Below, in pieces: positions 6,059 through 40,272 of a stretch of DNA of 64,000 bases. Location of the stretch: positions 4,650,001 through 4,714,000 of the forward strand of contig NZ_JADWYI010000001.1 in NCBI RefSeq assembly GCF_016904885.1. The letters run 5' to 3'. The notes beneath the pieces are model-generated. The model made no database searches. It was given only the letters and a program-made list of their open reading frames with translations, and was not told where the DNA came from. A program made the translations under genes and the position numbers. Each line of letters starts with the position of its first letter. Position 1 is the stretch's first letter. This DNA is from Archangium primigenium. GTDB lineage: Bacteria > Myxococcota > Myxococcia > Myxococcales > Myxococcaceae.

Positions 6059-6091
6059 AGTGTGCCTGTGTACGTGGGCGCAGCCCGGCAG

Positions 6092-6106
6092 ACATAGGGT
6101 TTATGT
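6092..6106. promoter_or_regulatory. Inverted repeat upstream of the three-gene operon
   Basis: ACATA and TATGT pair around GGGTT, 34-48 bp upstream of the first start codon of the leftward operon, in an unusually AT-rich spot for this DNA. It could be an operator or overlap a promoter; no confident -35/-10 pair was found. Confidence 0.3.
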
Positions 6107-22147: not shown

Positions 22148-22148
22148 C

Positions 22149-25100
22149 TTGGCATTCACCGAAGGTCGTATTCATCGCGGTCGCCCGACTCCCTACCCAT
22201 GGGAGCGGCAGGCGCTCGACCTCGTCTACAAGCACGAGTCCCTCTCGGACACCGATCCGCACCAGGCGTGGGAGCTTCACGAGCTCTACGACCCTGCGTC
22301 GGGCCGACTGTACGAAATCGATCTGCTCTTCTTGTCTCGTCAGGGCCTGTTCCTCGTCGAAATCAAGAGCCACCCGGGCGCGTTGACGGGTGACATCGTG
22401 GACTGGACCTTCACAGACGGAGGAGGGCGACGCACGATCGAGTGCCCGTATCCCGGCGCCAACCTGAAAGCCAAGGTGCTCGCCGACCTTCTCGAACGGC
22501 AGCTCGGCAAAGAGCGCCCCTACGTGCATGCGGCGGTCTTCCTCTCCCACGTCACCGAAGTGCGTCTCGACGGCGGCCGGCCGCCGTGGCTGCTGCTCCC
22601 GAAGGATGTCGGCTCCAGGCTCGTCAACGGACTCGATGGCCGCGACGCTCAGCGCATCGTCAACCGGCCGATGATGAAGCAGTTGCTCCAAGCAGCTCAT
22701 CGACTCGGCCTGCGCCCGAGCACGACTGCGCGCGTGGTGGGGGGCTACAAGCTCGTCGAGCTCGTCGACGACGGCGATGGCTATCAGGAGCACCTCGCGA
22801 AGAACGCCGCCGTCGAGCGCGATCAAGCGCGCGTCCGCAGTTACCTGGTGCCGGCCGCGACCTCCGCCGAGAGGCGCGCACAGCTTCACCGCGCAGCCCG
22901 ACGCGAAGCACGGACGCTCGCGCAGATCGGGCAGCACCCCGGGATCCTCGCCTACCGCTCCTTCGTCGACGACGCGCCGCTCGGCCCGGCGGTGCTCTTC
23001 GAGGCCTTCGAAGGCTCGCTCCCGCTGCACGCCTTCGTGCGCCAGGAGCCCAACCTGACCTTCGACGAGCGGCTCGGGCTTCTCCAGCAGATCGTCGAGG
23101 CGGTCGCCCACTGCCACCGCTCGGGTGTTCTGCACCGCAATCTCTCGCCCGCCTCGGTGTTGGTCCGGCGCGGGGCGGACGGGCGCATTCATGTGCGCCT
23201 CCATCGCTTTCAAACCGCGGCGTGGCTCGAGCACAGCAGCGTCGGGACCCGCCACTTCCACGAACTGTCGCAGGCGTTGGATCGCCTCTACCAGGCGCCC
23301 GAGGTCCTCGCGGACCCCGAGAAGGCGACGTACGAGAGCGATGTCTTCTCGGTGGGTTGCCTCGCGTGGCTCGTCCTCACCGGACAGCACCCCGCCGCGA
23401 CGCTTGCCGAGCGAGAGCAGCGCATCAAGGGAGCGAAAGATGGCGAAGGTGGTCTTCGCCCCTCGGCGGTTCGCGCCGATCTCGCGATCCTCGACGAGGC
23501 GATCTCTTTCGCGACGCAGCCGAACCCTCATGCTCGCGCCGACGACATCTCCGATTGGTTCAACGCCTTCGTCCTCGAGGCGCTCACGCGCCCGGCGGCC
23601 GACATCGGCGCGGGCGCGGATCCGCGCGAAGCCCAGAAGGGAGACACCCTCCAAGGTGGCCTTCGCGTCGAGCGTCGCCTGGGCTCCGGCGGGACGGCGC
23701 TGGTGCTCCACGTGCGTCGCGAGGGGCGCGACTTCGCGCTGAAGGTCCCCCACGATGTGGGCTGCGGTGAGCGGCTGCTCGCCGAAGCGAAGACGCTGCA
23801 GGAACTGCGGCACGAGCACATCGTCGCGCTGCGCGACGTCCTCACGCTCGGCGGGTTGCCGTGCCTGCTCCTCGAGTTCGCGGGTGATCGGAGCCTGGGT
23901 GACGTGCTTCGCGAGCAGGGGACGTTGCCGCTCGAACTCGCGCGTCGGTACGGCGATGACCTGCTCTCGGCGGTCCAGTACCTCGAAGAGGCTGGCGTCA
24001 CGCACCGCGACATCAAGCCCACCAACGTTGGTTTCACGAGTCTGTCGAAGAAGCAGAGCCACCTGCTCCTCCTCGACTTCTCGCTCTCGTCCGCCGACGT
24101 GACCGCCATCAGCGCTGGCACCGCGGAGTGGCGCGACCCCTGGTTGTATCTGCGCGGCACGTGGGACGCCGACGCGGATCGCTACGCCGCCGCCGCCGTG
24201 CTCTATCACGCGCTCACCGGCGCGCGGCCCGCGCTCCCGCAGGGCGACGCGACCGCCGAGGTGGTCGTCGAGGCCGAGCGTTTCGATGCGGCGGTCCGCG
24301 ACCGGCTGACCTCCTTCTTTCGCCGAGCCTTCGCGCGCGAGACGACGACCCGGTTCTCCAGCGCCGAGGCCATGCGACAGGCGTGGGTGCATGCGCTGTC
24401 GGTCGAGTCGGAGACGGACGACGGCGCGTCCGCCATCGCCCTTGAGCAGGTCCGTCCCGAGACGCCCGTCGATGCCTTGCCGCTGTCGGCGCGCGCACGC
24501 AACGCGCTCGACCGGGCCGGCGTGTCCACGGTCGCTGAGCTGCTGCTCCTGCCGCGCAACCAGCTCTCGGTCGTTCGCGGTGTCGGCACGCATGTCGCGC
24601 GTGAAATCGTGGCGCTCGCCGATCAGCTTCGCGCTCGGTTCGAAGTCGAAAACCGCCCCGTGTTCATGCCGGGCTTTTCGCGCCCACGTCTGCTGTTGGA
24701 GGAGCCGGAGGCCGGCATCGAGGCAAGCACGGTCGACCGCTTGATGGCCGCGGGGCTCAAGACCACCATTGATGCCGCGCTCGCTCCCGCCGCTCGCATC
24801 GAGAAGCTCCTCGGGCGTGCCCGCGCCGACGCGCTTCGTGAGCGGCTCGCGGCCATCGCCGCCGCAGAGCCAACGCCGGGCTCACTCGGCGACTGGGCTC
24901 GCGAGCTCATCGGACGCGCCAGCGCGAACGAGGCGAATCGTCGGCTCCGTGTGCTGGTCGGGCTCGATCCGCTGCCCGACGAACGTCCGGATTCCGGGCT
25001 CCCGGCCGCGCGCACGGTGTCCGAGGTCGCTGGGGCGTTCGGCATCGAGCCCGCGCAGCTCCACTCGAGCCTTCAGTTCCTGCGCAACAAGCGCTGGGCG

Positions 25101-26411
25101 GACAACGCTGCTGCGGCCTCGCTCACGCAGGCCCTGTCATCCGCGCTCGACGCCGCGTCGCCCGCGGCGCCCTTCATGGACCTGGCCCACGCGTTGGCCA
25201 AGGCCCGCACCGAGGGGACGCCCAGCGACGACGACGTGCGCACCGCCGCGGCGCTCGTGCGTGTGGCGCTGGAACTTCGACCCAACCTTCCTGCCACCTG
25301 GCGGCGCATCGGCAGCACGCCTTGGGTGGCGCGTGACCCCGAAGTGCTCGACGCGCTCGCGGCCCTCGCGGAGAGCGCCGACAACCTTGCCGCGATCGAG
25401 CCGCTTCCCTCGTCCGAAGTCGTTCGTGCCTCGCTCGCCGAGGTCGCCGCTGGAACTCCCTTGGCGACGTTGCCGGCCGACCAGCGGCTCACCCTCGCCG
25501 CCCGCGCCAGCGAGCGCGCAGCGGCGTCGGCGCGGCTCGAGCTCTACCCTCGCGGCATGGACGCGGCGCGCGCGCTGTCCCTGAGCCTCGCCGTGCTCTC
25601 GGGCGCGGGGCTCTCCCCGGAAGTCGTCCGGCGGCGCATCGCGGCTCGCTATCCCGAGGCGGTCCCGCTCCCCGAGCGTCCGGCGCTCGACGAGTTGCTC
25701 GCGCCGCACGGCCTCGTCTTCATGCCGGACATCGGCACGGGCGAGTACGCACGACCCGGGCAGCACGCGAACACATCGATGACCGTTGCCTTGCCCTCGC
25801 GCCAGCCCACGGCACCGGGCCTCGTGCAGCGGCGCAGCCCCGAAGCGCAACGCGCCGCCGCCTTTCAGGATCAGCTCGATCGCGGCGTGGCCGCGGGCCG
25901 CTTCCGCGTGATCCAGGTGCGCGCGGACGTCGCGAGCCGTGCGATCGACGCGCTCGCGGGGGCGCTCGAGACACAGGCGGTGTCGCTCGACCACGCTCTG
26001 ACGAACGCCATTCGCCGTCAGGCCGAGGAACTTGGCGTCGACTGGGCCAATGTCGAGGCCGCCGACCGCGCCGGTCCCGGCGGGCCCGACTGGCCACTCC
26101 TCGTCGAGCTGGTACGCCAGGCGACCGACCGCGTCGTCGACGAGCTGCTCCACCGACGCGACCAGACCCTGGTGCTGGCGTGGCCGGGCGCGCTCGCGCG
26201 ATATGGCCTGGCTTCTGCGCTCGCGCGCATCGTTGAAGGCTCCGAGCGCGGCGATGCGCCCGCCATTCTTCTCGTAGTGCCCTCGCACGCTGACGGCACC
26301 GCCCCCTCCATCAACGGTCGGCTGCCCGTACCCGTGCCGCTACCGAGCCAGCGGCTCGTCATGCCCGATGCATGGCTGGCGAACGCCCATAAAGCCGCGG
26401 AGACGCCCTGA
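22149..26411 (+). CDS. pglW: BREX type 2 protein PglW: NERD domain, two kinase-like domains and helix-hairpin-helix
   Basis: About 1420 residues. The TTG at 22149, one base after the preceding stop, is used because upstream in-frame sequence overlaps the previous gene. Residues 1-130 form a NERD nuclease-related domain (EIDLLFLSRQGLFLVEIKS at about 57-75). Residues 250-480 are kinase-like, but the catalytic loop reads HRNLSPASV (Asp lost) near residue 331. Residues 505-740 form a second kinase with LGSGGTALVLHV, ALKV, HRDIKPTNV (about 619) and LDFS, likely active. A helix-hairpin-helix follows near 775-830 (VSTVAELLLLPRNQLSVVRGVG). PglW is the kinase of the Pgl/BREX type 2 phage-exclusion system; Streptomyces PglW has a similar size. 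Confidence 0.93.
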   Translation: MAFTEGRIHRGRPTPYPWERQALDLVYKHESLSDTDPHQAWELHELYDPASGRLYEIDLLFLSRQGLFLVEIKSHPGALTGDIVDWTFTDGGGRRTIECPYPGANLKAKVLADLLERQLGKERPYVHAAVFLSHVTEVRLDGGRPPWLLLPKDVGSRLVNGLDGRDAQRIVNRPMMKQLLQAAHRLGLRPSTTARVVGGYKLVELVDDGDGYQEHLAKNAAVERDQARVRSYLVPAATSAERRAQLHRAARREARTLAQIGQHPGILAYRSFVDDAPLGPAVLFEAFEGSLPLHAFVRQEPNLTFDERLGLLQQIVEAVAHCHRSGVLHRNLSPASVLVRRGADGRIHVRLHRFQTAAWLEHSSVGTRHFHELSQALDRLYQAPEVLADPEKATYESDVFSVGCLAWLVLTGQHPAATLAEREQRIKGAKDGEGGLRPSAVRADLAILDEAISFATQPNPHARADDISDWFNAFVLEALTRPAADIGAGADPREAQKGDTLQGGLRVERRLGSGGTALVLHVRREGRDFALKVPHDVGCGERLLAEAKTLQELRHEHIVALRDVLTLGGLPCLLLEFAGDRSLGDVLREQGTLPLELARRYGDDLLSAVQYLEEAGVTHRDIKPTNVGFTSLSKKQSHLLLLDFSLSSADVTAISAGTAEWRDPWLYLRGTWDADADRYAAAAVLYHALTGARPALPQGDATAEVVVEAERFDAAVRDRLTSFFRRAFARETTTRFSSAEAMRQAWVHALSVESETDDGASAIALEQVRPETPVDALPLSARARNALDRAGVSTVAELLLLPRNQLSVVRGVGTHVAREIVALADQLRARFEVENRPVFMPGFSRPRLLLEEPEAGIEASTVDRLMAAGLKTTIDAALAPAARIEKLLGRARADALRERLAAIAAAEPTPGSLGDWARELIGRASANEANRRLRVLVGLDPLPDERPDSGLPAARTVSEVAGAFGIEPAQLHSSLQFLRNKRWADNAAAASLTQALSSALDAASPAAPFMDLAHALAKARTEGTPSDDDVRTAAALVRVALELRPNLPATWRRIGSTPWVARDPEVLDALAALAESADNLAAIEPLPSSEVVRASLAEVAAGTPLATLPADQRLTLAARASERAAASARLELYPRGMDAARALSLSLAVLSGAGLSPEVVRRRIAARYPEAVPLPERPALDELLAPHGLVFMPDIGTGEYARPGQHANTSMTVALPSRQPTAPGLVQRRSPEAQRAAAFQDQLDRGVAAGRFRVIQVRADVASRAIDALAGALETQAVSLDHALTNAIRRQAEELGVDWANVEAADRAGPGGPDWPLLVELVRQATDRVVDELLHRRDQTLVLAWPGALARYGLASALARIVEGSERGDAPAILLVVPSHADGTAPSINGRLPVPVPLPSQRLVMPDAWLANAHKAAETP

Positions 26412-26413
26412 TC

Positions 26414-29400
26414 ATGACGAACCTGCCCAAGCTGCTGCAGCCCGCGCTCAAGGCGCTCGAGAAGGACCTGCTTGCGCGTGCCAAGACCGAGCGTGTCGAG
26501 GCGGGACTTCGTGCCGCGTGGACCGAAGAGCAGAACGCTGGTCAAACCGGGGTCGGGTTCGAGCCGTGGCGCCGTGAGCGCGTGACCCAGCTCGCTGTCG
26601 CGTGGATTTTATCGGTAGTCTTCGTGCGCACGCTCGAAGATCGCGGTTACGTCGATCCGCGCGTGGCGGGCGCGACGAAGGAAGCGCTGCGTGCGGCCGA
26701 AGACCGCGAGGCGCTCTTCCTCCAGGTCGCGCCGTTCTTGGGCCCGCGCGAGTACCTGCTCGCGATCTTCCGCGAGCTGGCGAAGCTCCCCGGCGCGCGC
26801 GACGTCTTCGACACGCGCCACAACCCGGTCTGGGTGCTCGCACCCTCGAGCGAAGGTGCCAAGGCGCTGCTTGACTTTTTCCGCAAGCCCGATGCGAGCG
26901 GAGCGCCCGCACTCGTGTTCGCGGACGAGGACACGCGCTTCCTTGGCGACCTGTACCAGGACCTCTCCGAAGCGGTGCGCAAGCGCTATGCGCTCCTCCA
27001 GACGCCCGAGTTCGTCGAGGAGTTCATCCTTGAGCAGACGCTCGATCCGGCGATCCGCGAGTTCGGCCTCGCCGAGGTGAACCTGATTGATCCAACCTGC
27101 GGCTCGGGGCACTTCCTGCTGGGTGCTTTCCGCCGCCTCTTGGGTCGATGGCAGGCCCATGCGCCGACGGAGCCCATCGCGGACCTCGCGCGACGGGCGC
27201 TCGGCCAGGTTTACGGCGTCGACATCAACCCCTACGCGGTGGCCATCGCACGCTTCCGGCTAGTGCTCGCGGTGCTCGACGCGGTTGGCATCAAGCGCCT
27301 CGAACGCGCGCCGGACATTCGTCCGAACGTCGTCGTCGCTGACAGCCTCTTGCATCGCTTCGACCAACGCGTGCTCAGCGTGGGTCAGATGTCGATGGAC
27401 GATGACCTACGCTGGGGTGACCGGCTCTTCCGGCTTGAGAACCGCCCCGACGTCGAGCGCGTGCTCACCAAGCGCTACCACGCGGTCGTCGGCAACCCGC
27501 CGTACATCACGGAGAAGGACGCGTCCAAGCGCAAGAAGTACCGCGAGATGTACGAGAGCGCGGCAGGCAAGTACGCGCTGGCCGCGCCGTTCACGGAGCG
27601 CTTCTTTGACCTTGGTGTCGAGGGCGGCTTCGTTGGGATGATCAACAGCAACGCTTGGACGAAGCGCGACTACGGGAAGACGCTCATCGAGAAGGTCTTG
27701 CCGCAGCTCGATGTGCACAAGATCATCGACACTTCGGGGTGCTACCTCCCTGGTCACGGCACACCAACTCTGCTTCTATTTGGTCAGAATCGTGTCGGGA
27801 CAGAGGCGGATATTGTTGCCGTGCTTGGGAAGCGCGGTGAACGAGAAGTGCCTCCTGCTCCGGCAAGCGCGCCCGTATGGACCGAGATCGTACGGCATCA
27901 CAACGATCTCGGATTTGATGGCGTTCACGTTTCGACCGAGGCTGTCTCACGCCGGGAACTGCGCAGGCATCCGTGGATAATGGCCGGTGGTGGCGCTCGC
28001 GGCGTGCTTGAGGACTTTGATGAAAAGGGCGCTGGACTAAAGTCAATCGCGGTAACGGGCGTCTTCGGTATGACGAATGCCGACGACTGCTACAGCTTGG
28101 ACGTTGGTGTCTTCCGTCGATTTGGAGTCGACGCGGCGAACGTTCGCCCGATTCTCTCGGGTGACTCGCCGCGCGATTGGTCCGCTGGGCCGGTCACTCA
28201 CTGTGTGTTTCCCTACGATTCAGATGGAAACCTCATTGATATCCACCTCCTCCCGGCTCTCGGTCGCTTCTTGTGGCCGTATCGCGAGCATCTCTATGCG
28301 CGCGCAACGTTCAACGGTGGGACGTACCGGTCCGACAATCAACCCTGGTGGAAGTGGCACCAAGTGGCTGCGGACAAGCTCCAAGCTGAGAGGAAGATAG
28401 CGTATGGCGAAGTCGCGACTCATAACCATTTCGTTGTCACTGAGCGCTCGACGGTCTGCAAGCAGTCTGCGCCGCTAGTCCTTCTTGGCCGAGACGCAGA
28501 CGCCGGCGACTACAGCGCGCTCTTGGGTCACCTCAACTCGTCAGCGGTCGGTTTTTGGGGGCGCCAAAACTTCTTCCAGAAGGGTGGCGACCAGATAGGC
28601 GCAGGAGCGCGCCTCTCCAAGACGCCGTGGCAGGACCGCCTTCAGATGGCCGGCAATCTGCTTCAACAGCTCCCCGTGCCGAAGCTGGACGCGTTGCGCG
28701 GCGCGCTCCTCGGCCTAGTGCTTGCTGCCGAAGAGACCGTGCGCGAGATGGCCGCGCTCGCGCCCGAGAAGATCGTGGCTGCCATCCTCTCGGCGACGCC
28801 CAAGCTCACAGCGCTTCGCGAGGCCCGCACGCGCTGCCTCGCCGAGCGCGCGCGGCTGCGGGGCATCCTCGTCTCGCTGCAAGAGGAGATGGATTGGCGC
28901 GTGTACGGCCTCTTCGGTCTGCCGACGGTCGAGGCGCCGTCCGTCGATGCCGTTCGCGTCCCCGTCGAGCCGAACCACCGCCCCTTCGAGGTGCGCCTCG
29001 CGCGCGAGGTGAGCACCGACATCTCGGCCTCCGAATGGTTTCGTGTTCACAAGCGCGAGGCGCCCTCGGACGTCGGCGGGCCGCTCGCCGATCTCTATCG
29101 CCAGCGCCTGCGGCTCCTCGACGAGCCCGAGCACGGCAAGCAACTCCGCTTGCTCGAGACGCCGGAGACCAAGCGCCGCTGGTCGCCGCCCGACGACGCC
29201 AAGGCCTTCACGGCGGCCGTTCGTACGTGGCTGCTCGAACGCATCGAGGCCGCCTTCCGAGACCAGAGCACGCCAGAGCTGCGTACGGCACGCCAACTCG
29301 CACTCGAGCTCGGTCGCGATCCTACGGTGCAGGCGGCGCACGAACTGCTCACCGAGGAGAGCGGTCTCGAGCTCGTGCGGCTCATCTCCGACCTCGTCGA

Positions 29401-30217
29401 TGGCGAAGGCGTGCCCTTCCTCGCGGGCTACCGGTACGCCGAGACCGGAATGGAGAAGCGCGCGAGCTGGGAGGAGACCTGGCGGCTCCAGCGCCTCGAA
29501 GACGCAGGCACGCTCGCGCCCGAGCTGAAGCGCCTCGCCCTCAAGGCCATCCCGGTTCCCGACAAGTACGGGCCCAAGGACTTCCTGCGGCACTACTGGG
29601 GCCTGCGCGGCAAGCTCGACGTGCCCAAGGAGCGGTTCGTCACCGTACCCGGCGGCAACACCGACGAGGACACCACGCCGCTCGTGGGCTGGGCGGGCTG
29701 GGACCACCTGCAAGTGGCGCAAGCGCTCTCGGGCCTCTACCAGCGGCGCAAGTCCGAGGATGGCTGGACCAGGGACCGGCTCGTTCCCCTGCTCGCGGGC
29801 ATCGATGAGCGCGTGCCCTGGCTCCTCCAGTGGCACAACGAGCCGTCGGCTGCATTCGGCGAGATGAAGCTCGGCGAGTTCTTCCGCGACTTCGTCGCTG
29901 GCGAGGCGCACACGCTTGGCATCGCGGTGGGCGACCTGCGCGCGTGGACGCCGCCCGCCGCTCCGAAGCGCACGACGGTCGACCCGAGTGACGTGCTCGC
30001 GGCGCTGAAAAGCTGGAAACCCGAGAGCGATGACGATGAAGGCGAAGACGAGGAGGCCGAGCTGCCGGAAGGCCCGACCGAAGCGGACCTCGCGAGCGAA
30101 GTGGGCGTCACGAAGGCCCTCATCAAGAAGGCACTCAAGAAGCTCGAAGCGGACGGGCTGATCGAGAAGCTGGGCGGGCGCCCCGCCCGATACGTGGCGA
30201 CGGAGAGCAGCTCATGA
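26414..30217 (+). CDS. pglX: BREX type 2 adenine-specific DNA methyltransferase PglX
   Basis: About 1267 residues, ATG with GGAGA upstream, 2 bp after pglW. Motif I of N6-adenine methyltransferases is DPTCGSGHFLLG (near residue 226) and motif IV is NPPY (near 361). A variable target-recognition region follows to about residue 720, then a long C-terminal part with a winged-helix-like end (SEVGVTKALIKKALKKLEADGLIEKLGG). It modifies host DNA and is needed for BREX action. The stretch about 27740-28560 is visibly poorer in GC than the rest (for example 30 of 60 bases G+C at 28381-28440), suggesting exchange of the recognition domain. Confidence 0.93.
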   Translation: MTNLPKLLQPALKALEKDLLARAKTERVEAGLRAAWTEEQNAGQTGVGFEPWRRERVTQLAVAWILSVVFVRTLEDRGYVDPRVAGATKEALRAAEDREALFLQVAPFLGPREYLLAIFRELAKLPGARDVFDTRHNPVWVLAPSSEGAKALLDFFRKPDASGAPALVFADEDTRFLGDLYQDLSEAVRKRYALLQTPEFVEEFILEQTLDPAIREFGLAEVNLIDPTCGSGHFLLGAFRRLLGRWQAHAPTEPIADLARRALGQVYGVDINPYAVAIARFRLVLAVLDAVGIKRLERAPDIRPNVVVADSLLHRFDQRVLSVGQMSMDDDLRWGDRLFRLENRPDVERVLTKRYHAVVGNPPYITEKDASKRKKYREMYESAAGKYALAAPFTERFFDLGVEGGFVGMINSNAWTKRDYGKTLIEKVLPQLDVHKIIDTSGCYLPGHGTPTLLLFGQNRVGTEADIVAVLGKRGEREVPPAPASAPVWTEIVRHHNDLGFDGVHVSTEAVSRRELRRHPWIMAGGGARGVLEDFDEKGAGLKSIAVTGVFGMTNADDCYSLDVGVFRRFGVDAANVRPILSGDSPRDWSAGPVTHCVFPYDSDGNLIDIHLLPALGRFLWPYREHLYARATFNGGTYRSDNQPWWKWHQVAADKLQAERKIAYGEVATHNHFVVTERSTVCKQSAPLVLLGRDADAGDYSALLGHLNSSAVGFWGRQNFFQKGGDQIGAGARLSKTPWQDRLQMAGNLLQQLPVPKLDALRGALLGLVLAAEETVREMAALAPEKIVAAILSATPKLTALREARTRCLAERARLRGILVSLQEEMDWRVYGLFGLPTVEAPSVDAVRVPVEPNHRPFEVRLAREVSTDISASEWFRVHKREAPSDVGGPLADLYRQRLRLLDEPEHGKQLRLLETPETKRRWSPPDDAKAFTAAVRTWLLERIEAAFRDQSTPELRTARQLALELGRDPTVQAAHELLTEESGLELVRLISDLVDGEGVPFLAGYRYAETGMEKRASWEETWRLQRLEDAGTLAPELKRLALKAIPVPDKYGPKDFLRHYWGLRGKLDVPKERFVTVPGGNTDEDTTPLVGWAGWDHLQVAQALSGLYQRRKSEDGWTRDRLVPLLAGIDERVPWLLQWHNEPSAAFGEMKLGEFFRDFVAGEAHTLGIAVGDLRAWTPPAAPKRTTVDPSDVLAALKSWKPESDDDEGEDEEAELPEGPTEADLASEVGVTKALIKKALKKLEADGLIEKLGGRPARYVATESSS

Positions 30218-31362
30218 GTGCGAATTGGACATCCCTGATGCCGCACATTCCGGTTCGCCCCGGCGCGACCGAATACGTGCGGCGACCTGGGGGCGCCAGC
30301 GAGGAAATCGCCAATTGGATTCTGGCGAACCGTTCGCCGGTGTTGCTCGGTGGACCCGCCGGAGTTGGAAAGAGCACCGAGCTCGCGCGCGCGGCGCAGC
30401 TGCTCCAGCCGCATCGCGTGGCATGCCTCATCCCGCTTGACCGCTGGGAGAACATGCGACGTCTCGGTCCCGAGCAGATGCTCCAACGCATCGCGGGCCG
30501 CGTTGCATATGTCGCGAAGGAGACACTCCACCTGTCGTTGTCGGAGGGGCTCTTCGAGGAGTCGCAGAAGAGCGTCAGCAGCCGCTGGAGCCCCGCCGGC
30601 CTCGCGCGGCTGGTGCTCGTCGAAGTCGCGCGGCTTTCCAGGCAAGGGCGCGTCACGTTGCTGCTCGACGGCCTGGAGAAGGTGCCCGAAGGTCCGGCGT
30701 CGATGGAGCTGTTCGATGCGCTTGCTGCGCTGCCGGAAGAGGTGGAGTTGGTCGCGGTCATCCCCTGGCATGCTGCCTTCGGTCCTCACGCGGAGACCAT
30801 CATCCGGGCGGGTGAGCGCTTCGTGTCCGCGCGAGCTGTCGAGGTCGACGGCGAGCGCGGTCGCGAGGGTCGCGCCTTCTTGCAGAACGTACTCCTTCGT
30901 CGCCTACAGCTCCCCGAGGAGGTGCTCGATCCCGGTGATGCCGAGACGTTTGTATCGCTTGGTCTCCCCTGGGATGAGGAGCGTGCTCGCGCCGCCGCCA
31001 GAGGAAGCCTCGTCGCCGATGCGGCGATGGCCAGCGGAGGCATCCCTCGCATCTTCCTTCAGCTCATGGCGGATGCCGCCTCGTACGCGAAGCTTCGTCG
31101 AGAAGGAGATTGGCCCATCGTCGAGGACCTGAAGGACGCCTGCACGGACCAGATCGACACCTTCCGTCGCCTCTTGCTTCCGGGAGATACAGACGAAGCG
31201 CGGAACGCTGTGGGTACCGACGGTCGCGAGCTGGAACTGAGCCGCAAGATTCGATTGATGGCGCACGGCATTCTTCTCGAACGCGTGAGGGAGCAGGTGC
31301 CCGTGCTCGAGCTTCACCCCCTGGCGCACATCGCGATTGAGCGGGGAGGCAGCCGTGCGTGA
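30214..31362 (+). CDS. AAA/STAND-like ATPase inserted between pglX and pglY
   Basis: About 382 residues; its ATG overlaps the pglX stop (ATGA). Walker A is LLGGPAGVGKSTELARAA (near residue 48-56) and Walker B is VTLLLDGLEKV (near 150), followed by a sensor-like VAVIPWHAAF. The C-terminal half is helical. It resembles AAA_16/AAA_22-type NTPases that act as switches. It is not one of the six core BREX type 2 genes I know, so it is either a subtype-specific component or a passenger locked into the operon by overlapping starts and stops. Confidence 0.72.
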   Translation: MSANWTSLMPHIPVRPGATEYVRRPGGASEEIANWILANRSPVLLGGPAGVGKSTELARAAQLLQPHRVACLIPLDRWENMRRLGPEQMLQRIAGRVAYVAKETLHLSLSEGLFEESQKSVSSRWSPAGLARLVLVEVARLSRQGRVTLLLDGLEKVPEGPASMELFDALAALPEEVELVAVIPWHAAFGPHAETIIRAGERFVSARAVEVDGERGREGRAFLQNVLLRRLQLPEEVLDPGDAETFVSLGLPWDEERARAAARGSLVADAAMASGGIPRIFLQLMADAASYAKLRREGDWPIVEDLKDACTDQIDTFRRLLLPGDTDEARNAVGTDGRELELSRKIRLMAHGILLERVREQVPVLELHPLAHIAIERGGSRA

Positions 31363-31900
31363 TCCCGTTCAGGCGATGATCAACGCCATCGAACGAGACG
31401 AGGGCGGGGTCGCGATTGTCTGGTGCCCCGACCTCGGCCTGCGAGAGTGGCTCGTCGGCGAGGTCGAGAGCCTCGCCGCGGCGGGAGCCAATCCCGTGCG
31501 CAAGGACGACGTCGAGGGCGCCCTGACAGAGCCCTCGCGTCTGGTCCTTCTCGTCCCGGCCAACGAGCGTGAGGTCGTGCTCGACCTCGATGCGAGCCGT
31601 GATCGCTTGCTCGAAGCGCCCAGGCGCACCCAGCCGATTGTCTTGTTCCTCGTCCGAGAGGGCGACGGGCAACGCGCGCTCGCGGCGGAGGCCATGAGCC
31701 TCGCGAGTTGGGTGGGGGGGAGTGATGCCGATCCCGACGCCCTCGCCCAAATCGATGTGAAGGAGGAGCGCGAAGCGTTCGAACGCGACCTCGGCACGTC
31801 GCCGGAGGAATGGCTGAAGGCCTGGCGAGTTGGCGCTCATCCCAACACCGCGGAGAACTTCAGGATGGCCTATCGCGCCATGCTGCTGGAGGCGACGTGA
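31355..31900 (+). CDS. Unknown small protein of the BREX operon
   Basis: About 181 residues from a GTG at 31355 with GGGGAGG 5 nt upstream, overlapping the ATPase stop by 8 bp. It alternates beta strands and helices (GVAIVWCPDLGLREWLV, RLVLLVPANEREVVLDL, QPIVLFLVREGD), suggesting a Rossmann-like or receiver-like fold without an obvious P-loop. No family recognised. Tight coupling to the ATPase suggests they work together. Confidence 0.6.
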   Translation: MRDPVQAMINAIERDEGGVAIVWCPDLGLREWLVGEVESLAAAGANPVRKDDVEGALTEPSRLVLLVPANEREVVLDLDASRDRLLEAPRRTQPIVLFLVREGDGQRALAAEAMSLASWVGGSDADPDALAQIDVKEEREAFERDLGTSPEEWLKAWRVGAHPNTAENFRMAYRAMLLEAT

Positions 31901-32493
31901 AGACCTGGGTCGAGCTGTACACGAGCCATCGCCAGGTTCGCGCCGGGCCGCCGACGTGGACTGGCGAGGTTCGCAAGAGGCTCATCGCGCTTGCCGAGGC
32001 CGGGCATTGCGACAAGAGCATTCGCGGTCGCTTCAGCCAGCAGCGCTCGGGGGAGCTCGTCGAGTGGTCCATTCGGAAGGACAACGCCCAGGCGGCCGAG
32101 CCGTTGACCGGACTTGCTGACTTGAAGACGGCCCAAATCTCGGTCCTCGGATTGGTCAGCCGGAAGGGGCATCTCCACTCGTTCACCGTCTCCGTCGAAG
32201 GGAAGCGAAGCGATGGCTCGAGCTGGGCGGTCGCGGTGCATCTCCCCGACGACCGGGAGACCGAAAAGAAGCCCAACGGCGATCGCCAGGGTCTGGGGGC
32301 GTGCAGTCACGCCGCCCTGCACTGTCATGTGGGCCCTGATCTCGACACCGGTCCGGAGGTCCGTGTTCCGCTGCCGGCGCTCACCCCAGGCGAAGTGCTC
32401 GACTGGGTCCTCTCGCAGCTCGTGCCCACCCAGGCATTCGAACCCGCGCCGTGGCCCTCGGTTCTCGACGCCATGAAGAAGGCTTCCTCATGA
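31897..32493 (+). CDS. Unknown protein of the BREX operon, upstream of pglY
   Basis: About 198 residues, GTG start overlapping the previous stop (GTGA). The middle has a beta-rich stretch (QISVLGLVSRKGHLHSFTVSVEGKRSDGSSWAVAVHLPDD) and a Cys/His-containing run (ACSHAALHCHVGPD) that could bind metal. No family recognised. Its stop overlaps the pglY ATG by 4 bp, so it is clearly part of the same transcript. A structural or adaptor role is only a guess. Confidence 0.6.
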   Translation: MKTWVELYTSHRQVRAGPPTWTGEVRKRLIALAEAGHCDKSIRGRFSQQRSGELVEWSIRKDNAQAAEPLTGLADLKTAQISVLGLVSRKGHLHSFTVSVEGKRSDGSSWAVAVHLPDDRETEKKPNGDRQGLGACSHAALHCHVGPDLDTGPEVRVPLPALTPGEVLDWVLSQLVPTQAFEPAPWPSVLDAMKKASS

Positions 32494-35400
32494 CACGCAT
32501 CCACGACCTCCTCGATCTGCCGGAAGCCGTTCGGAAGGGCGACTTCGTCCAGGACCTCACGGGTGGCATCGCTCAGCCCGAACGCACGGTGAAGGACTAC
32601 GCGATCACGCCGAAGATCGTGCAGACGTTCGAGCACGCGCTGTCGATCATCGGCAGCGCGCTGCGCGACAGTCGCAGCCAGGCGGCGTACCTGCACGGGT
32701 CGTTCGGCGCGGGCAAGAGCCACTTCATGGCGCTGCTCGACCTGATGCTCGCGGACCACCCGGCGCCGTGGCGTCGTGCCGAGCTGCACGAGCTGCGTGG
32801 CAAGAACCCGTGGATCGGAAAGAAGAAGCTGCTTCAGCTCCCGATTCACATGCTCGGCGCACAAGACATGGAGTCGAAGATCCTCGGCTCCTACGTCGCT
32901 TGGGCTGCCAAGCACCATCCCGATGCGCCCGTTCCCGCAGTGTACGCGGACCAGGGGCTCTTCGACGATGCACGGCGCCTGCGCATCACGCTCGGGGACG
33001 ACACCTTCTTCGGCAAGCTGAACGGCGGAGTCCAGCAGGCTGCGACCGGCTGGGGCAAGCTCGCCGAGAAGCGCAAGTGGGATGCTGCATCGTTCGACGC
33101 CGCGGCCTCCGCCACCTACGTCGGCGAGAGTGATCGAGACGCGCAGAGCCCTCGCGCCAAGCTGTTCAGCGACCTCGTTCGGACGTTCTTCACGTCGTGG
33201 ACGTCGCAGCAGGGACGTTTCGTTGACCTGGACACCGGACTTGGCGTGATGAGTCGGCATGCCAGGTCGCTTGGCTTCGACGCCATCGTGCTCTACCTCG
33301 ACGAGCTGGTGCTGTGGCTTGCCGGCAACTCGAGCGATCTCCCGTTCGTCGGGCGGGAGGTTCAGAAGATGGTGAAGCTGAAGGAGGCGCAGGATGCCGA
33401 TCGCGCCATCCCGATCGTGAGCTTCATCGCGCGGCAGCGAGACCTATCGCAGTTCCTCGGTGAGCAGGCGCAGGGCGCGGTGCGCACGGAGCTATCGCGC
33501 AACCTGTCCCATCACGACGGGCGCTTCGAGACGGTCACCCTCGCCGACAGCAACCTCCCGGCCATCGTCGCTCATCGCGTGGTTCGTCCCAAGGATGACT
33601 CAGCGGCGCAGCGCCTCGCCGACGACTTCGCGAAGACGTGGCGCGCCGCGGGGCAGGCGCAGAGCGTGCTGATCGGCAGCGAGGGCGATGAGGCCGACTT
33701 CAAGAAGGTCTATCCGTTCTCCCCGGCGCTCGTCGAAGCGCTCGTCGCTTTGTCGGACTGCTTGCAGCGCGAGCGCACTGCGATCCGCATCTTGATGGAG
33801 CTTCTGGTCAACCATCTGCCGGACCTCGAGACCGGCCGGGTCGTGCCCGTCGGGGACGCGTTCGACGCCCTCGCGGAGAGCGAAGACCCGATCGACGACC
33901 CGGTGATGAAGGCGCGCTTCGACCGCGCCCGCGACCTCTATCGCGAGAGCTTTCTCCCCATCATCCGTCGCCAACACAACACGGACACGCCCAGCGCATG
34001 TCAGCGCCTGCGGGAAGACCACGACCGCCGGCTCGGCTGCAGCGGCTGCACGCAGCGCACGTGCCGCAACGACAACCGCCTCGCGAAGACGCTGCTCATG
34101 GCCGCGCTCGTCCCCGAGGCCAGGCCGTTCAAGGGGCTCACCGTCAAGCGCCTGGCTCACTTGAACCACGGGACCATCGCCTCGCCGATTCCCGGCGCCG
34201 AGATGCAAGTGGTCGCGCAGCGGCTGCGAGACTGGGCGAGCCAGATCGGTGCGCTTCGCCTGGGCGAGCAGGCCGATCCCGAGGTGAGCATTCATCTCGC
34301 TGGCATCGATCTCCAGCCGATCCTCGCGCAGGCCGCGGAGGCCGATACGCCGGGGGCCCGGAAGGCCACGATGCGGCGCCTGCTGTTCCAGGCGCTGGAG
34401 CTCAACAGCGATGGCACTGTGGTCGAAACCGAGCTGACGTTCTACGGCACGCGCCGGAAGGGGCGCATTCGCTACGGTAACGTCCGCGAGATGGACGAGA
34501 CCACGTTGACCTGCCCGCGCGAGCTCGAGTGGCAGCTCATCGTCGACTACCCTTTCGATGAGCGTGGGCATGGCCCCGACGAGGATCTCCGAACCGTCGA
34601 ACGCTACCGGGACTCGCGGCCCGCCGATGCACCGCCGAACCCGACCGTGGTCTGGCTGCCGACGTTCTTCTCCCACTCGCTCGAGCGCGAGCTCGGCGAA
34701 CTGGTGGTCCTGGAGCACATCCTCGACGGGGATGCTCGCAAGTACCTCGGTCACCTTCGCGTCGAGGATCAGTCGACCACGCGCGCGGACCTCGCAAGCC
34801 TTCGCGCGCAGAAAGAGGCGCTGGTCAAGCGAACGCTCGCGCAGGCCTACGGGCTCGCGATGGCGAATGACAGCGCGTTCCTCGACCAGTCGCGCACGGT
34901 TGATGAGCACTTCATCCCGCTTCTCGGTGACCTCGACATTCGCACCGTCCTCGCGGGCACCATGAAGGAAGGCTTCCGGCAGGTCGTCGATACGATGCTG
35001 TCGAAGAAGTACCCGCATCATCCGCGCTTCGACGGCACGGTGTCGGCGACGCGCATGGAGAGGGTGGGGGCGCTCGTCGAGAAGCTGCTCGACGAGCGTG
35101 AGCGCCGCATGAATGTGGAGCGCGGCGAACGTAACGACCTCCGCGCGTACGCCGATCCGCTCGGCATCACGGAGACCGGCGACGTTGCGGTGCTGCTTCG
35201 GGAGCGGTCGTTCCAAGACATCGAGCAGCAGCGGCAGCAGGCCGGCATGGACACGCCGACGGTCGGTAACGTGCGAGGCTGGCTTGATCCGCAGCGGACG
35301 CGTGGGCTCCCGCCGGAGGTGCAAGACGTCCTCATCTCGCTGTATGCATCGTGGAGTGGGCGAACCTTCCGGCGCGATGGTCGCAGCTTCGCGCCCCCAC

Positions 35401-36188
35401 GTCCCGGGCAGTTCCCCGACGACGTCGAGCTTCTGCGTCCCGAGTTGCCGACGCTCGCCGAGTGGACGGAGGCCCTGAACCGAGCCGGAGACCTGCTCGG
35501 TGTGGCGATTGGAGGACGAGCGCTGGGTGCCCGCAACCTGTCGGCCTTCGCGGACAAGGTGAAAGAGGCGCTTGCCCGTGTTCGCGACGCGAGAGACCTG
35601 CCGGCCGCGCTCGAACCGAAGATTCGTGACTGGGCCGAGCCCGGAGATGCCCCGCGTCTGGCTACGGCACGAGCATGTGCCACGTTGCTCGAGCTGCTGG
35701 GTAGCGGTGACGGAGCTTCGATGGTGCGCGACCTCGCGAGCTTCGCGCCGACGACGTCCCTCACCGCGATGGAGCGGAACTTCAGGACCGCCGCCGCCTC
35801 GAAGCGCTTGCTCGAGGAAGATGCGCGCTGGATCGTCCTTCGACAGGTGAAGGGGCTCCTTGGCGATGCCGAACGTGGCGAGCGCGCGAAGTTGCTTCTT
35901 CAGGACCTCGCCGCGCTGCTCACCGCTGACGAAGTCAACAAGATGCTCGCCGACGGTCTTGCTGATCTGACCCGGCGTGCGGACGAGCTGCTGCGCGTCC
36001 CCACCCCCAAGCCGCCGCGCCCGCCGGTGCAGGATGAGGAGATCGTCCTCGAGGAGTCGAGCGACCTCGGCGACGCGCAAGCTGCTGCCGATGCGCTGCG
36101 GAAGCTTGCGAAGCGCCTCGAAACCGAGGGCAAGGGAGCGTCGCGCATCGTCATCAGGATCACGGCCTGGAAGCGGAGGCCGGAATGA
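32490..36188 (+). CDS. pglY: BREX type 2 ATPase PglY
   Basis: About 1232 residues from the ATG at 32490 (ATGA overlap with the previous gene). Walker A is LHGSFGAGKSHFMALLD near residue 68, and IVLYLDELVLWLAG near 270 is the Walker B region. A cysteine cluster lies around residue 515-530 (GCSGCTQRTC). The long C-terminal part is helical and ends in a charged tail. Size, P-loop position and the place between pglX and pglZ match PglY, the BrxC-like ATPase of Pgl/BREX type 2. Confidence 0.9.
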   Translation: MTRIHDLLDLPEAVRKGDFVQDLTGGIAQPERTVKDYAITPKIVQTFEHALSIIGSALRDSRSQAAYLHGSFGAGKSHFMALLDLMLADHPAPWRRAELHELRGKNPWIGKKKLLQLPIHMLGAQDMESKILGSYVAWAAKHHPDAPVPAVYADQGLFDDARRLRITLGDDTFFGKLNGGVQQAATGWGKLAEKRKWDAASFDAAASATYVGESDRDAQSPRAKLFSDLVRTFFTSWTSQQGRFVDLDTGLGVMSRHARSLGFDAIVLYLDELVLWLAGNSSDLPFVGREVQKMVKLKEAQDADRAIPIVSFIARQRDLSQFLGEQAQGAVRTELSRNLSHHDGRFETVTLADSNLPAIVAHRVVRPKDDSAAQRLADDFAKTWRAAGQAQSVLIGSEGDEADFKKVYPFSPALVEALVALSDCLQRERTAIRILMELLVNHLPDLETGRVVPVGDAFDALAESEDPIDDPVMKARFDRARDLYRESFLPIIRRQHNTDTPSACQRLREDHDRRLGCSGCTQRTCRNDNRLAKTLLMAALVPEARPFKGLTVKRLAHLNHGTIASPIPGAEMQVVAQRLRDWASQIGALRLGEQADPEVSIHLAGIDLQPILAQAAEADTPGARKATMRRLLFQALELNSDGTVVETELTFYGTRRKGRIRYGNVREMDETTLTCPRELEWQLIVDYPFDERGHGPDEDLRTVERYRDSRPADAPPNPTVVWLPTFFSHSLERELGELVVLEHILDGDARKYLGHLRVEDQSTTRADLASLRAQKEALVKRTLAQAYGLAMANDSAFLDQSRTVDEHFIPLLGDLDIRTVLAGTMKEGFRQVVDTMLSKKYPHHPRFDGTVSATRMERVGALVEKLLDERERRMNVERGERNDLRAYADPLGITETGDVAVLLRERSFQDIEQQRQQAGMDTPTVGNVRGWLDPQRTRGLPPEVQDVLISLYASWSGRTFRRDGRSFAPPRPGQFPDDVELLRPELPTLAEWTEALNRAGDLLGVAIGGRALGARNLSAFADKVKEALARVRDARDLPAALEPKIRDWAEPGDAPRLATARACATLLELLGSGDGASMVRDLASFAPTTSLTAMERNFRTAAASKRLLEEDARWIVLRQVKGLLGDAERGERAKLLLQDLAALLTADEVNKMLADGLADLTRRADELLRVPTPKPPRPPVQDEEIVLEESSDLGDAQAAADALRKLAKRLETEGKGASRIVIRITAWKRRPE

Positions 36189-38962
36189 CGGAGTCGCCGC
36201 TCCTTTCGGAGGCTGACGTTCGCTTGGAGGTCGAGCGGCTCTTTCGTCGCGACCACCGTTCGCGTCTCCTTGCGCTCTTCGGCCGAGGTCAGCCGGGGCG
36301 CTTCGAATTGGATGGCCTCGCTTGGGAAATCATCCCGACGGCCTGCGAACTCGAGCTGCGCTCGAAGTTGCCGGCCCCTGGAGAGAAAACGTCGTCGGGG
36401 AGCGTGTACCTCGTCGACTGGGCCGAGGACGCGCTTCCGCTCGACGTTTCCTGCCGGCTCGCGGGCGGTCGCATCTATCACGTCGCTCGTGACGCCCGCC
36501 TCGCTGCGCTGTTCGGCGCACGTCAGGTGGACCCCGGACTCTCCTCGACGGCGCTCGCACGGCTCGTCCTCTCCGGTACCATCGAGGGACTTCTCAAGAT
36601 CACGGGACTTCGGCTGACTCGCAGCGGGCTTTGGCTGCGCTTTGTCGAGGCGCGGTTCGGCATCCCGGAGCGCGCACTTGAGGGGCCCTCCGAGTGGCTT
36701 CGCTGGGTTCGCGGTTCGGACGCAGGGCCTGCATTCGCTCGCGCATGCGAGACGGACGATCTGCTGCGGGCGGTGCGGCGCGAGGCACTCGACTGGATCG
36801 AGGAGTGCCTTGGACCCGTAGGAGTGTTGGGGTTCCGCGCGTGGGAGCTCGGTCTCGTCGACAAGGCACTTCAGGCTCTGCTGCTGTTGGTGGCGGCAGA
36901 GCAGCACCCCGATGCGTATTTGCGCGGCCTCGTCAGCGGTCAGGTCGCGAGCATCGCGCCCGGACTCGCGAGTGAAGTCCGAGCTGCGTACGCTGCGGGG
37001 GGGGCGCCGGCGCTACTGGAAGCCGTGCTGTCCGTGGAGAGCGCTGAGGATCGTCGCCTGCTCGACGAAGCAGAGCAGCATGCTGTCGGCGGTGGCGCTT
37101 CGGCGCTCGCTACGGCGAGCGAGTGGTTGCCGGCCGGTCACAAGGCACGCGAGGCAGCTCTCGCCGAATCCCTGTTGGCGTTCGTCGATGCGCCGAGTCC
37201 CGAGACGCTAGAGGCGGTGCTCGCGGCCTTTGAGCACCTGAGCGCCCATCGGTTGGATCGGGCGATTCGTCGTTCGGAACACGTCGAAGCGCGGCGAATG
37301 GCGGCGCGGCTTGCCGCGTGGATCCTCGGGCGACGCGTGCGGCCGCAACTCGCCGAGCATGGCACCACGTGGCAGGCCGCCCTCGACCTCGCCCGGCGCT
37401 ATGCCGAGGAGGGAGGCTTCCTCGACTGGGCAAGGCAAAGTGTACGCGGAATGCGCGGCGCAGGCGAAGAGCTGATGGTGGCCGTTCGCCGACTGCTCGA
37501 CGCGGTGGATGCAGTTGCGCGAGCAGACGACCAACGCTTCGCACAGGCCTACGTGGCCTGGGTAGATGCCGGAAAGCCGTCGAGCGAGGTGCTCCCGATC
37601 GAGCACGTCACGAAACGTGTCGTGGCCCAGTTCCTCAAGGGCGGCGAGCACCGACGGCTGCTCCTGGTCCTCATGGACGGCATGAGCTACGCGGCGGCCG
37701 TCCAGGTGCTTCAGCGGCTGCGCGATCAACGTCGATGGAGCCCGATCGCGTGGCGTGTGCCTGGCTGGAACGGGCAGCTGCCGATCCCGCCCGTGCTGGC
37801 TGCCGTTCCCACGTTGACCGAGGTGAGTCGGGCCGCGCTGTTCGCCGGGGTGGCTGATCCGCGCTTCGGGGACCAAGGCACCGATCGAGACGACGCTCGC
37901 TGGGCGGAGAATCCGCATGTTCGAGAGCTGGTGGGGGATGAGCCACTCACGGTGTTCTTCCGGCGCGATATCCACGCGGGGCACGCGCTCATCGACGAGG
38001 TAAAGCAGGCCATCGCCAGCGATCACCGGGTCGTCGCCGTAGTGGTGAACGCCATCGACGAGCAGCTCAAGGGCAGCCTGCAGGTCGCGGTCGACTACAG
38101 CCGAACGCCCATTCTGCCGCTCGAGGCGCTCTTGAGCGCTGCCGATGGCGCGGAGCGCGCCGTCCTCCTCGTTGCAGATCATGGCCACGTCGCCGGCGAT
38201 GCGATGCGTGTCGCGGCTGGCCGCCTTCCTCAGGGGAGTACGGGAGGAGCGCGTTGGCGCGCACTGGCCGAAGGCGAGCAGCCGCAGGCCGACGAAGTGC
38301 TCTTGCCGAGGACGTCGTGGAAGCCGCGCGGGGCGGCGGGGGTCGCCGCGCTTTGGGACACGTCGGTCGCGAACCGCGCGCCCCATTACGGAGAGCACGG
38401 CGGGCTGTCGTTGGCCGAGGCGGTTGCTCCTGCGTTCTTGATTGGACCCGAGTGGCTGGACCGCGTTGTTGGCGAGGATGTCGAGCTGTCGTGTCGCGTG
38501 CTTCCTGAACCTGACTGGTGGGCGCTAAAAATCATACGATTGGCAGCCCCGCCCGCTGCCATCCAGCCGACGCAGACCGCGCCTACCACGAAGCAGTTGC
38601 AACTCATTCCCGTGGAGCCCGCGAAGTCGGCCTTGGCGCCGCCTCACGCTCCGAGCGAGCCGGACCTGGTGGTGCGGCTCAGACAGTCCAAGCTCTTTGC
38701 GCAGCAGGTTGCGGGCGTGCTGAAGCCCGAGATCGAGCGTGTGCTCACTTGGCTCGGTGTGCTCGTGGGGGCGGGTGGCAGCATGACCGCCGCGGACTTC
38801 GCCCACGCGTGTGGCGTGCGTCCCCATCAGGTGGGCGGCGTCGTTGCGCGGATGGGTGTCCTGAACGCCGACGGCTTCGCCATCGTTGAACACGACGTCG
38901 CCGGCCGCCGAGTCGTTTTGCAGAAGGCAAGGCTCCTCTCGCAGTTTGGAGTGACCGAATGA
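36185..38962 (+). CDS. pglZ: BREX phosphatase-fold protein PglZ
   Basis: About 925 residues, ATGA overlap with pglY. The alkaline-phosphatase-superfamily core is recognisable: LLLVLMDGMSYAAAVQVL near residue 495 (metal-binding Asp), VVAVVVNAIDEQ near 620, and AVLLVADHGHVAGD near 660 (Asp-His-x-His metal ligands). The N-terminal 480 residues are helical. The C-terminus has a winged-helix-like part (MTAADFAHACGVRPHQVGGVVARMGV). PglZ is the signature gene of all BREX types. Metallo-hydrolase activity is expected from the family. Confidence 0.93.
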   Translation: MTESPLLSEADVRLEVERLFRRDHRSRLLALFGRGQPGRFELDGLAWEIIPTACELELRSKLPAPGEKTSSGSVYLVDWAEDALPLDVSCRLAGGRIYHVARDARLAALFGARQVDPGLSSTALARLVLSGTIEGLLKITGLRLTRSGLWLRFVEARFGIPERALEGPSEWLRWVRGSDAGPAFARACETDDLLRAVRREALDWIEECLGPVGVLGFRAWELGLVDKALQALLLLVAAEQHPDAYLRGLVSGQVASIAPGLASEVRAAYAAGGAPALLEAVLSVESAEDRRLLDEAEQHAVGGGASALATASEWLPAGHKAREAALAESLLAFVDAPSPETLEAVLAAFEHLSAHRLDRAIRRSEHVEARRMAARLAAWILGRRVRPQLAEHGTTWQAALDLARRYAEEGGFLDWARQSVRGMRGAGEELMVAVRRLLDAVDAVARADDQRFAQAYVAWVDAGKPSSEVLPIEHVTKRVVAQFLKGGEHRRLLLVLMDGMSYAAAVQVLQRLRDQRRWSPIAWRVPGWNGQLPIPPVLAAVPTLTEVSRAALFAGVADPRFGDQGTDRDDARWAENPHVRELVGDEPLTVFFRRDIHAGHALIDEVKQAIASDHRVVAVVVNAIDEQLKGSLQVAVDYSRTPILPLEALLSAADGAERAVLLVADHGHVAGDAMRVAAGRLPQGSTGGARWRALAEGEQPQADEVLLPRTSWKPRGAAGVAALWDTSVANRAPHYGEHGGLSLAEAVAPAFLIGPEWLDRVVGEDVELSCRVLPEPDWWALKIIRLAAPPAAIQPTQTAPTTKQLQLIPVEPAKSALAPPHAPSEPDLVVRLRQSKLFAQQVAGVLKPEIERVLTWLGVLVGAGGSMTAADFAHACGVRPHQVGGVVARMGVLNADGFAIVEHDVAGRRVVLQKARLLSQFGVTE

Positions 38963-40272
38963 GCGCGCCGAGCGTGCTGCTCCGCAAGGACGTCACCGAG
39001 GCGCTGCGCCGGGGAACGGTACCGCGTCGAGGTCTCGACTTGTTTGCCGTGGGGACCGACCGCTTCGCTGTCTCGCTGCGCGAGGAGCTCGAACGCTGCG
39101 CGACTGGCGGGGCCGTGTTCAAGGCGCTGCGAGGCGACTTTGGCTGCGGCAAGAGCTTCACCGCCCGCTGGTATCAGCAACAGGCGCTCGCACGCGGCTT
39201 CGCCGTCGCCGAGGTTCAGATCTCGGAGAACGACACGCCGCTGCATCGGCTGGAGACAGTCTACCGAAGAGCCACCGAGGGCTTGCGAACCTCCGAATGG
39301 GACACGGGGGCGTTTCGCGCGATCATCTCGCAATGGCTGATGGGCCTCGAAGAAGAGGTCTCACGCTCGCTCCGAGATCCAGACGACATGAAGGCGCTGG
39401 CTGCGGGCGTGGGCGAGCTGCTCGAAGCACGCCTCAAGGACGTGAGCGCGGTACAGCCGCAGTACGCGGCGGTACTTCGTGCCTACCACACAGCCGAGGT
39501 GGCTGGGGACCATGCGCTGGCCGAGGGGCTCATCGCCTGGCTGATGGGTCAGCCGAACGTCAGCGCGGACATCAAGCGGCAGGCGGGCATCAAGGGCGAG
39601 GTAGACCACACGGGTGCAATGGGCTTCCTGCGGGGCCTGCTCGCTGTCCTCCATCAGTGCGGAAGGCCAGGCCTGATGCTCGTTCTCGACGAGGTGGAGA
39701 CCATCCAGCGGGTTCGCTCCGACAGCCGAGACAAAAGCCTGGAGGCGATCCGAAAACTCATTGATGACCTCTATGGCGGTCGGTTCGCAGGGCTGTACGT
39801 GCTCATCACCGGGACGCCCGCCTTCTTCGATGGGCCGAACGGAGTGAAGCGACTGCCGCCGCTCGCCCAGCGACTGCACGTCGACTTCTCTGGCGACGCC
39901 CGCTGGGACAACCCGCGCGACGTCCAAGTACGGCTGTTCCCGTTCGACCATGAGCGCCTGGTCGAGGTGGGTCGTCGCGTGCGCGACCTGTATCCGACGG
40001 ACGCGCCTGACCGCATGAAGGCCCGCGTCTCCGACGCGGTGCTCTCCGGGTTGGCGACCGAGGTCGCGGGAAAGCTCGGTGGCAAGGTCGGCGTGGCGCC
40101 CCGCATCTTCTTGCGAAAGCTCGTCGCGACCATCCTGGATCGTGTCGACCTCTTTCCCGAGTTCGACCCGAGCAAGGATCTCGACATCCGCATCGATGCG
40201 CAGGAGCTCACGCTCGAGGAGCAGGCCGCAGCCGCCGGCAAGAAGCCGGATGACATCGAGATCAGCCTGTGA
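38959..40272 (+). CDS. brxD: BREX ATP-binding protein BrxD
   Basis: About 437 residues, ATGA overlap with pglZ. Walker A is LRGDFGCGKSFTARWYQ near residue 57-65 and Walker B is GLMLVLDEVETIQ near 235-247, followed by an Arg-rich RVRSDSRDK and GLYVLITGTPAFF (sensor I). This matches the DUF2791 ATPases named BrxD, which occur in BREX types 2 and 6 next to brxHI. It probably works with the helicase encoded directly downstream. Confidence 0.9.
   Translation: MSAPSVLLRKDVTEALRRGTVPRRGLDLFAVGTDRFAVSLREELERCATGGAVFKALRGDFGCGKSFTARWYQQQALARGFAVAEVQISENDTPLHRLETVYRRATEGLRTSEWDTGAFRAIISQWLMGLEEEVSRSLRDPDDMKALAAGVGELLEARLKDVSAVQPQYAAVLRAYHTAEVAGDHALAEGLIAWLMGQPNVSADIKRQAGIKGEVDHTGAMGFLRGLLAVLHQCGRPGLMLVLDEVETIQRVRSDSRDKSLEAIRKLIDDLYGGRFAGLYVLITGTPAFFDGPNGVKRLPPLAQRLHVDFSGDARWDNPRDVQVRLFPFDHERLVEVGRRVRDLYPTDAPDRMKARVSDAVLSGLATEVAGKLGGKVGVAPRIFLRKLVATILDRVDLFPEFDPSKDLDIRIDAQELTLEEQAAAAGKKPDDIEISL

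Follow-up and report, generated by a model that had tools for sequence, protein, structure and literature searches.

Phage defence operons of the bacteriophage exclusion (BREX) type are known to host genes that do not belong to their core. In type I BREX, accessory defence genes such as PARIS and BrxU are nested between pglX and pglZ (PMC11341690, PMC9009780), and among roughly 9000 genomes with co-localised pglZ and pglX about 7000 have genes, including BrxU and PARIS, between BREX components (PMC11341690). An indel in BREX that comprises an ATPase and a DUF4435 gene is dispensable for methylation (PMC9009780). For BREX type 2 (BREX-2, Pgl), PMC12839542 gives a definition of the system, assigns an iSTAND to the C-terminal end of PglW and offers a catalogue of auxiliary nuclease effectors; 'DarT' and 'ADP-ribosyl' are absent from its main text. 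HEPN genes embedded in Pgl operons have also been described (PMC3710099), and ternary MoxR-vWA-iSTAND systems are reported to be over-represented among bacteria of multicellular lifestyle (PMC7159879). Here, we analyse three genes, designated P1, P2 and P3 (the trio), which lie between pglX and pglY of a BREX-2 operon in a 64,000-nucleotide stretch of the Archangium primigenium genome (the window). Defence modules nested in BREX are thus known, and this trio is undescribed within the literature searched: neither the trio nor the pglX-pglY junction as a slot was found in it, the search covering main texts, with subscription papers and preprints mostly outside.

The three genes are found together in loci without BREX, the nearest BREX-2 relatives lack them, and in other loci the junction that they fill carries other defence modules. 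We consider it probable that P1-P2-P3 is a self-contained, patchily distributed STAND-type nucleoside triphosphatase (NTPase) module, which would act as accessory defence cargo translationally coupled in a BREX-2 slot. The original prediction, made from the window alone, had placed three extra genes at 30214-32493 of a BREX type 2 operon and had them joined by overlaps of 4-8 bp. All of this was confirmed: the three open reading frames (ORFs) are found there on the plus strand, the core genes pglW, pglX, pglY, pglZ, brxD and brxHI were all identified with PADLOC and NCBIfam, and the trio, which is extra to this core set, is coupled to the operon by overlaps at every junction (4, 8, 4 and 4 bp). 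The first gene, P1 (30214..31362), encodes a STAND/AAA-like P-loop NTPase of 382 aa and starts in an ATGA at 30214 that contains the pglX stop. P2 (31355..31900; 181 aa) starts with GTG at 31355, 8 bp before the end of P1, P3 (31897..32493; 198 aa) overlaps P2 by 4 bp in a GTGA at 31897, and an ATGA at 32490 is common to the P3 stop and the pglY start. The P3 start is most likely the GTG at 31897, which gives 198 aa and not the 227-aa ORF proposed originally, because homologues align from this codon and it overlaps the P2 stop. From ATGA to ATGA, the inserted plus-strand block (30214..32489) comprises 2276 bp, and in the closest BREX-2 relatives pglX and pglY are joined directly.

The census of BREX-2 covered 31 loci with pglX and pglY: the window, 12 further loci of its phylum, the Nannocystis punicea locus (L084) and 17 loci of a second phylum. 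Of the 13 genomes with BREX-2 that this phylum set has besides that of the window, 12 were included; the one omitted, G150, has its BREX-2 pglZ spread over two contigs. The second-phylum loci are 17 of 50 fetched BrxD regions, the other 33 having no detectable pglX and pglY pair; a further 12 of the 62 BrxD places over the cut-off in that phylum were left out, mostly because too little contig was available upstream, and one of them is the L084 genome. The trio is present in only two of the 31 loci, the window and Nannocystis punicea, which is not the distribution of a core component. Its presence in BREX-2 is patchy.

P1 was sought in 59 relatives (matches in three), in the phylum sets for G000 (195 genomes; 41 matches at E <= 1e-3, seven of them strong at E < 1e-60) and G195 (377 genomes; 39 matches at E <= 1e-6), and in a wider genome-contig collection, where L084 is among the matches listed. 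The resulting set of strong P1 loci numbers 25, that is 24 and the window. A full P1-P2-P3 trio in this order is found in 18 of the 25 (17 and the window), and since homologues of all three ORFs follow one another likewise in 17 loci besides the window, the ORFs do not arise by chance. Sixteen of these 18 full trios have no BREX genes in the stretch examined, although some stretches stop at contig ends. One of the 25 loci (L070) has P1-P2 without a detectable P3, and in five more loci with weak P1 matches (L123-L127) no P2 or P3 was detected. The plasmids searched contained no trio, and neither did the viral contigs searched. The original prediction suggested that the trio may define a BREX-2 variant with an added NTPase switch and proposed a comparison across BREX-2 loci; that comparison did not support a variant, with the trio in two of 31 loci, absent from the closest relative and mostly found without BREX genes in the stretch examined. 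On the same distribution, we rejected the trio as new BREX-2 core parts.

Several trios are of interest in their own right. In Nannocystis, the BREX-embedded trio is accompanied by another, stand-alone copy in the genome (L106, 6691-8985, minus strand). A highly diverged trio (24%–26% identity) is located at 4952-7472 (minus strand) of L071; its genome, G125, also has a BREX-2 locus, with an empty slot, and the genes beside the diverged trio resemble polymorphic-toxin genes by eye. In the full trio of L117, P1 (3749-4906, minus strand) is split over two reading frames, which points either to decay of the copy or to an error in the assembly.

The comparison with close relatives shows what the junction looks like without the trio. 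The closest relative of the window (G133, locus L075; 93% DNA identity) lacks the trio and has 11 bases where the window carries it, with a single ATGA common to pglX and pglY; its DNA is 93% identical to the window from 32492 onward and 87%–89% identical upstream of 30206. The same overlap of pglX and pglY at one ATGA is seen in L073 and L074 as well as L075, and the genomes with an empty site are G133, G032 and G125. The locus of Nannocystis punicea (NZ_CP114040; L084/L107) resembles the window in having an ATGA overlap on either side of the trio. The junction overlaps of both embedded trios are identical (4, 8, 4 and 4 bp), and pglY starts with MTRIHD in both carriers versus MTTRIHD in L074 and L075. 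The embedded copies are sisters in the trio tree, which omits L112 (P1 only), with an ultrafast bootstrap (UFBoot) support of 100, but two other positions of the trios were not rejected by approximately unbiased (AU) tests (p 0.13 and 0.16). The core tree, ((window, L075), (L073, (L074, L107))), sets the two carriers apart, each nearest an empty relative, and the flanking DNA tracks this tree up to the junction. The junction details common to both carriers and the sister position of their trios favour, without proving it, that the embedded form arose once and was later lost or exchanged; parallel insertion may also account for the pattern. A recent foreign insertion, as judged by base composition, gave no signal: GC content at third codon positions (GC3) is 0.76-0.81 in the trio versus 0.76-0.84 in the rest of the operon.

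Several modules with no relation to each other are found between pglX and pglY, which suggests a slot for cargo. The gap between these two genes is at least 1.7 kb in 12 of the 31 loci and at most 249 bp in the remaining 19, whereas gaps of at least 1 kb are found in only one of 31 loci between pglY and pglZ and in four of 31 between pglZ and brxD (Fisher p 0.0011 and 0.040, respectively; the loci are related, so these p values are guides only). The pglW-pglX gaps were unfit as a control, as the search fell short of the PglW C-terminus in divergent loci. As the window owes its place in the set to the original prediction, the fair rate of filled slots is that obtained with the window set aside, 11 of 30.

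Two of the 12 filled slots hold the trio and ten hold other occupants, at least four of which have strong PADLOC matches. One is a DarT and DarG pair (L080, 6258-7979; E 2e-63 and 7e-134), fitted exactly between pglX and pglY by an ATGA overlap at either end, and the other three are AAA_21 and DUF4276 pairs matching HEC-01 (L192, L194 and L203; ATPase E 8.5e-98, 3e-157 and 1e-111). The remaining six slots contain an 806-aa CHAT protein with a DAC-like C-terminal stretch followed by two proteins without a Pfam match (L178, 9348-11765, minus strand), a DUF2326/LmuB-like protein (L078), an HTH-M78 protein (L186), a SLFN_AlbA_2/RecG-type (Schlafen-type) protein (L083), small genes including DUF4258 plus an HTH set (L076), and a 7.6-kb block with, by eye, a NERD-like and a helicase-like ORF, one ORF being reversed (L196). 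Three loci (L078, L079 and L080) are 94%–95% identical in DNA over about 9.7 kb, and at the same ATGA the first has an LmuB-like gene, the second has no insert and the third has DarTG. Such occupants link the trio, by guilt of association, with abortive or back-up defence.

As the original prediction had it, one protein of the trio is an ATPase with clear Walker motifs and the other two belong to no recognised family. The Walker A motif, GPxGxGKSTE, and a DGLEK stretch resembling Walker B are invariant across 19 aligned P1 homologues, and their position in a STAND/AAA_16-like domain places P1 among the STAND/AAA P-loop NTPases. As a single sequence, P1 scores below the cut-off of Pfam AAA_16 (E 1.1e-5, 26.4 bits versus 32.6), but when the alignment was scanned member by member, AAA_16 was matched by 19 of 19, AAA_22 by 17, and nSTAND_NTPase5 and NACHT by 13 each. 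The matches of P1 to PADLOC are weak (best E 0.0028) and assign it to no known system, and a sequence search of the PDB returned generic P-loop proteins only. Cargo of the PARIS/OLD-TOPRIM type (an AAA_21/OLD ATPase with TOPRIM, DUF4435 or DUF4276) was considered and rejected, P1 being AAA_16-like and P2 and P3 having no such match.

P2 and P3, taken as single sequences, have no match in PADLOC and no credible match in Pfam or NCBIfam, and neither has a match in the PDB sequence search. Scanning the members of the two family alignments one by one gave nothing coherent for P2 (19 members; best DUF7804 in three of 19, E 5.5e-4) and no coherent family for P3 (18 members). All 19 aligned P2 members adjoin P1. 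The P2 family alignment contains no P-loop motif, and in profile comparisons P2 matched neither P1 nor the PglW C-terminus (hhalign probability 0.2%); the identification of P2 as the BREX-2 iSTAND is unsupported by these comparisons, and PglW retains its own C-terminus. P3 displays a G-x-G-x-x-x-H-x3-H-x-H motif with a later R-x-P, and H138, H142, H144, R156 and P158 are invariant in the 18 aligned members. We infer that the histidines may form a metal site.

The trio would thus be an accessory antiphage module of the back-up or abortive kind, and its position inside BREX would allow it to be expressed together with BREX. Conservation and gene order suggest that P1 is a small STAND-type NTPase switch and P2 its partner or sensor-adaptor, while P3, through its invariant His triad, would be the likeliest candidate for a metal-dependent effector. 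Several observations weigh against this interpretation. P1 occurs without detectable P2 or P3 in six of the 25 loci, one of them (L114) cut by a contig end, so that the trio is not strictly obligate. The neighbours of 22 P1 loci include none conserved beyond closely related pairs and no common defence partner, and the flanks of stand-alone trios, read by eye, consist of ordinary-looking chromosomal genes, which speaks weakly against a pure defence role. P3 is a putative effector on grounds of conservation, and the AlphaFold models obtained for P2 and P3 had too low a confidence for use (predicted local distance difference test, pLDDT, 48.7 and 46.4). More tentatively, and with somewhat greater doubt than confidence, we propose that the trio may be an undescribed three-component STAND-NTPase defence system with a new His-triad effector family (P3), and that the pglX-pglY junction may be an internal defence-cargo slot, where modules are exchanged at an ATGA overlap of stop and start that can be used repeatedly and that couples the translation of each cargo to that of the flanking methyltransferase and ATPase genes.

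The features common to the two embedded copies could also be read as signs that P1-P2-P3 serves this lineage of BREX-2 as a set of functional subunits, in which P1 would gate methylation or restriction and P2 and P3 would extend sensing, for example as BrxB-like iSTAND parts. Identical overlaps and the same altered pglY start in distantly related genomes fit such a role, the sister position of the embedded trios is as if they had adapted to BREX, and P2 lacks a P-loop as iSTANDs do. However, a subunit set is hardly expected in two of 31 BREX-2 loci with 16 of 18 full trios lacking BREX, the PglW C-terminus, where PMC12839542 puts the BREX-2 iSTAND, is full length and unmatched by P2, and the AU tests leave other placements of the embedded trios open; we regard this explanation as unlikely.

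The ordinary-looking surroundings of stand-alone copies and the lack of a conserved neighbour would suit a module that serves regulation or the stress response, has nothing to do with phage and reached the operon by chance. Such a hitchhiker would not be expected to keep its reading frames and junctions intact in two BREX loci, and the strong PADLOC matches among the other slot occupants are unlikely for random cargo, which makes this origin quite improbable in our view. Similarly low is the probability that we assign to a toxin-antitoxin-like addiction cassette stabilising the BREX operon, with P3 toxic and P1/P2 restraining it. The slot does hold DarTG in L080 and the DUF4258 plus HTH set in L076, but the trio consists of three conserved genes including a large NTPase, shows no DNA-binding antitoxin signature and has no family match to known toxins. 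Accessory defence cargo remains the interpretation that we prefer.

The operon itself is a complete, collinear plus-strand BREX-2 set. It begins with pglW (22059..26411; NERD, pseudokinase and kinase; PADLOC PglW E 0; NCBIfam BREX_PglW 965.8 bits, just below the cut-off of 990) and the adenine methyltransferase gene pglX (26414..30217; BREX_2_MTaseX 1151 bits, cut-off 400). Downstream of the trio lie pglY/brxC (32490..36188; PADLOC BrxC E 0; NCBIfam PglY 820 bits, below the cut-off of 1700), pglZ (36185..38962; BREX_PglZ_2 434 bits, cut-off 200), brxD (38959..40272; BREX_BrxD 604 bits, cut-off 350) and brxHI (40269..42413; PADLOC BrxHI E 1e-266). The PADLOC matches to PglW and PglY are full length although both NCBIfam scores are below the curated cut-offs, and these scores indicate a somewhat diverged BREX-2 clade. 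Among the window, L073-L075 and L107, pglX is less conserved (69%–82% identity) than pglY, pglZ, brxD and brxHI (82%–98%), as expected if target specificity changes. An 1841-aa ORF at 42688-48213 (minus strand) matching PADLOC TmtA (E 6e-259) adjoins the operon, and the window may for this reason represent a defence island beyond BREX.

If the proposed role is true, an undescribed three-gene module joins the antiphage repertoire, and one fixed point in BREX-2 operons repeatedly acquires unrelated defence modules (DarTG, HEC-01 and others). Reading the pglX-pglY junction across genomes would then be a simple way to new defence genes, and the function of the trio could be tested directly by way of the slot. 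BREX variants should, with due caution, not be named from cargo genes.

Compared with BREX type 2 (Pgl) at large, the window shares all six core genes in collinear order and differs by the trio inserted at the pglX-pglY junction; 29 of the 31 loci lack these three genes. The MoxR-vWA-iSTAND systems (PMC7159879) are also three-gene systems with a STAND-related part, but the trio has no recognised vWA or MoxR, and P2 is no more than a putative iSTAND. The auxiliary or back-up effectors described in PMC12839542 and PMC3710099 are likewise back-up modules in BREX/Pgl loci; those are nucleases or RNases, whereas the trio contains no recognised nuclease. The cargo of type I BREX and that of the window are both separate modules within a BREX operon, with the difference that the window presents a type 2 system, the pglX-pglY junction and an unnamed three-gene NTPase module.

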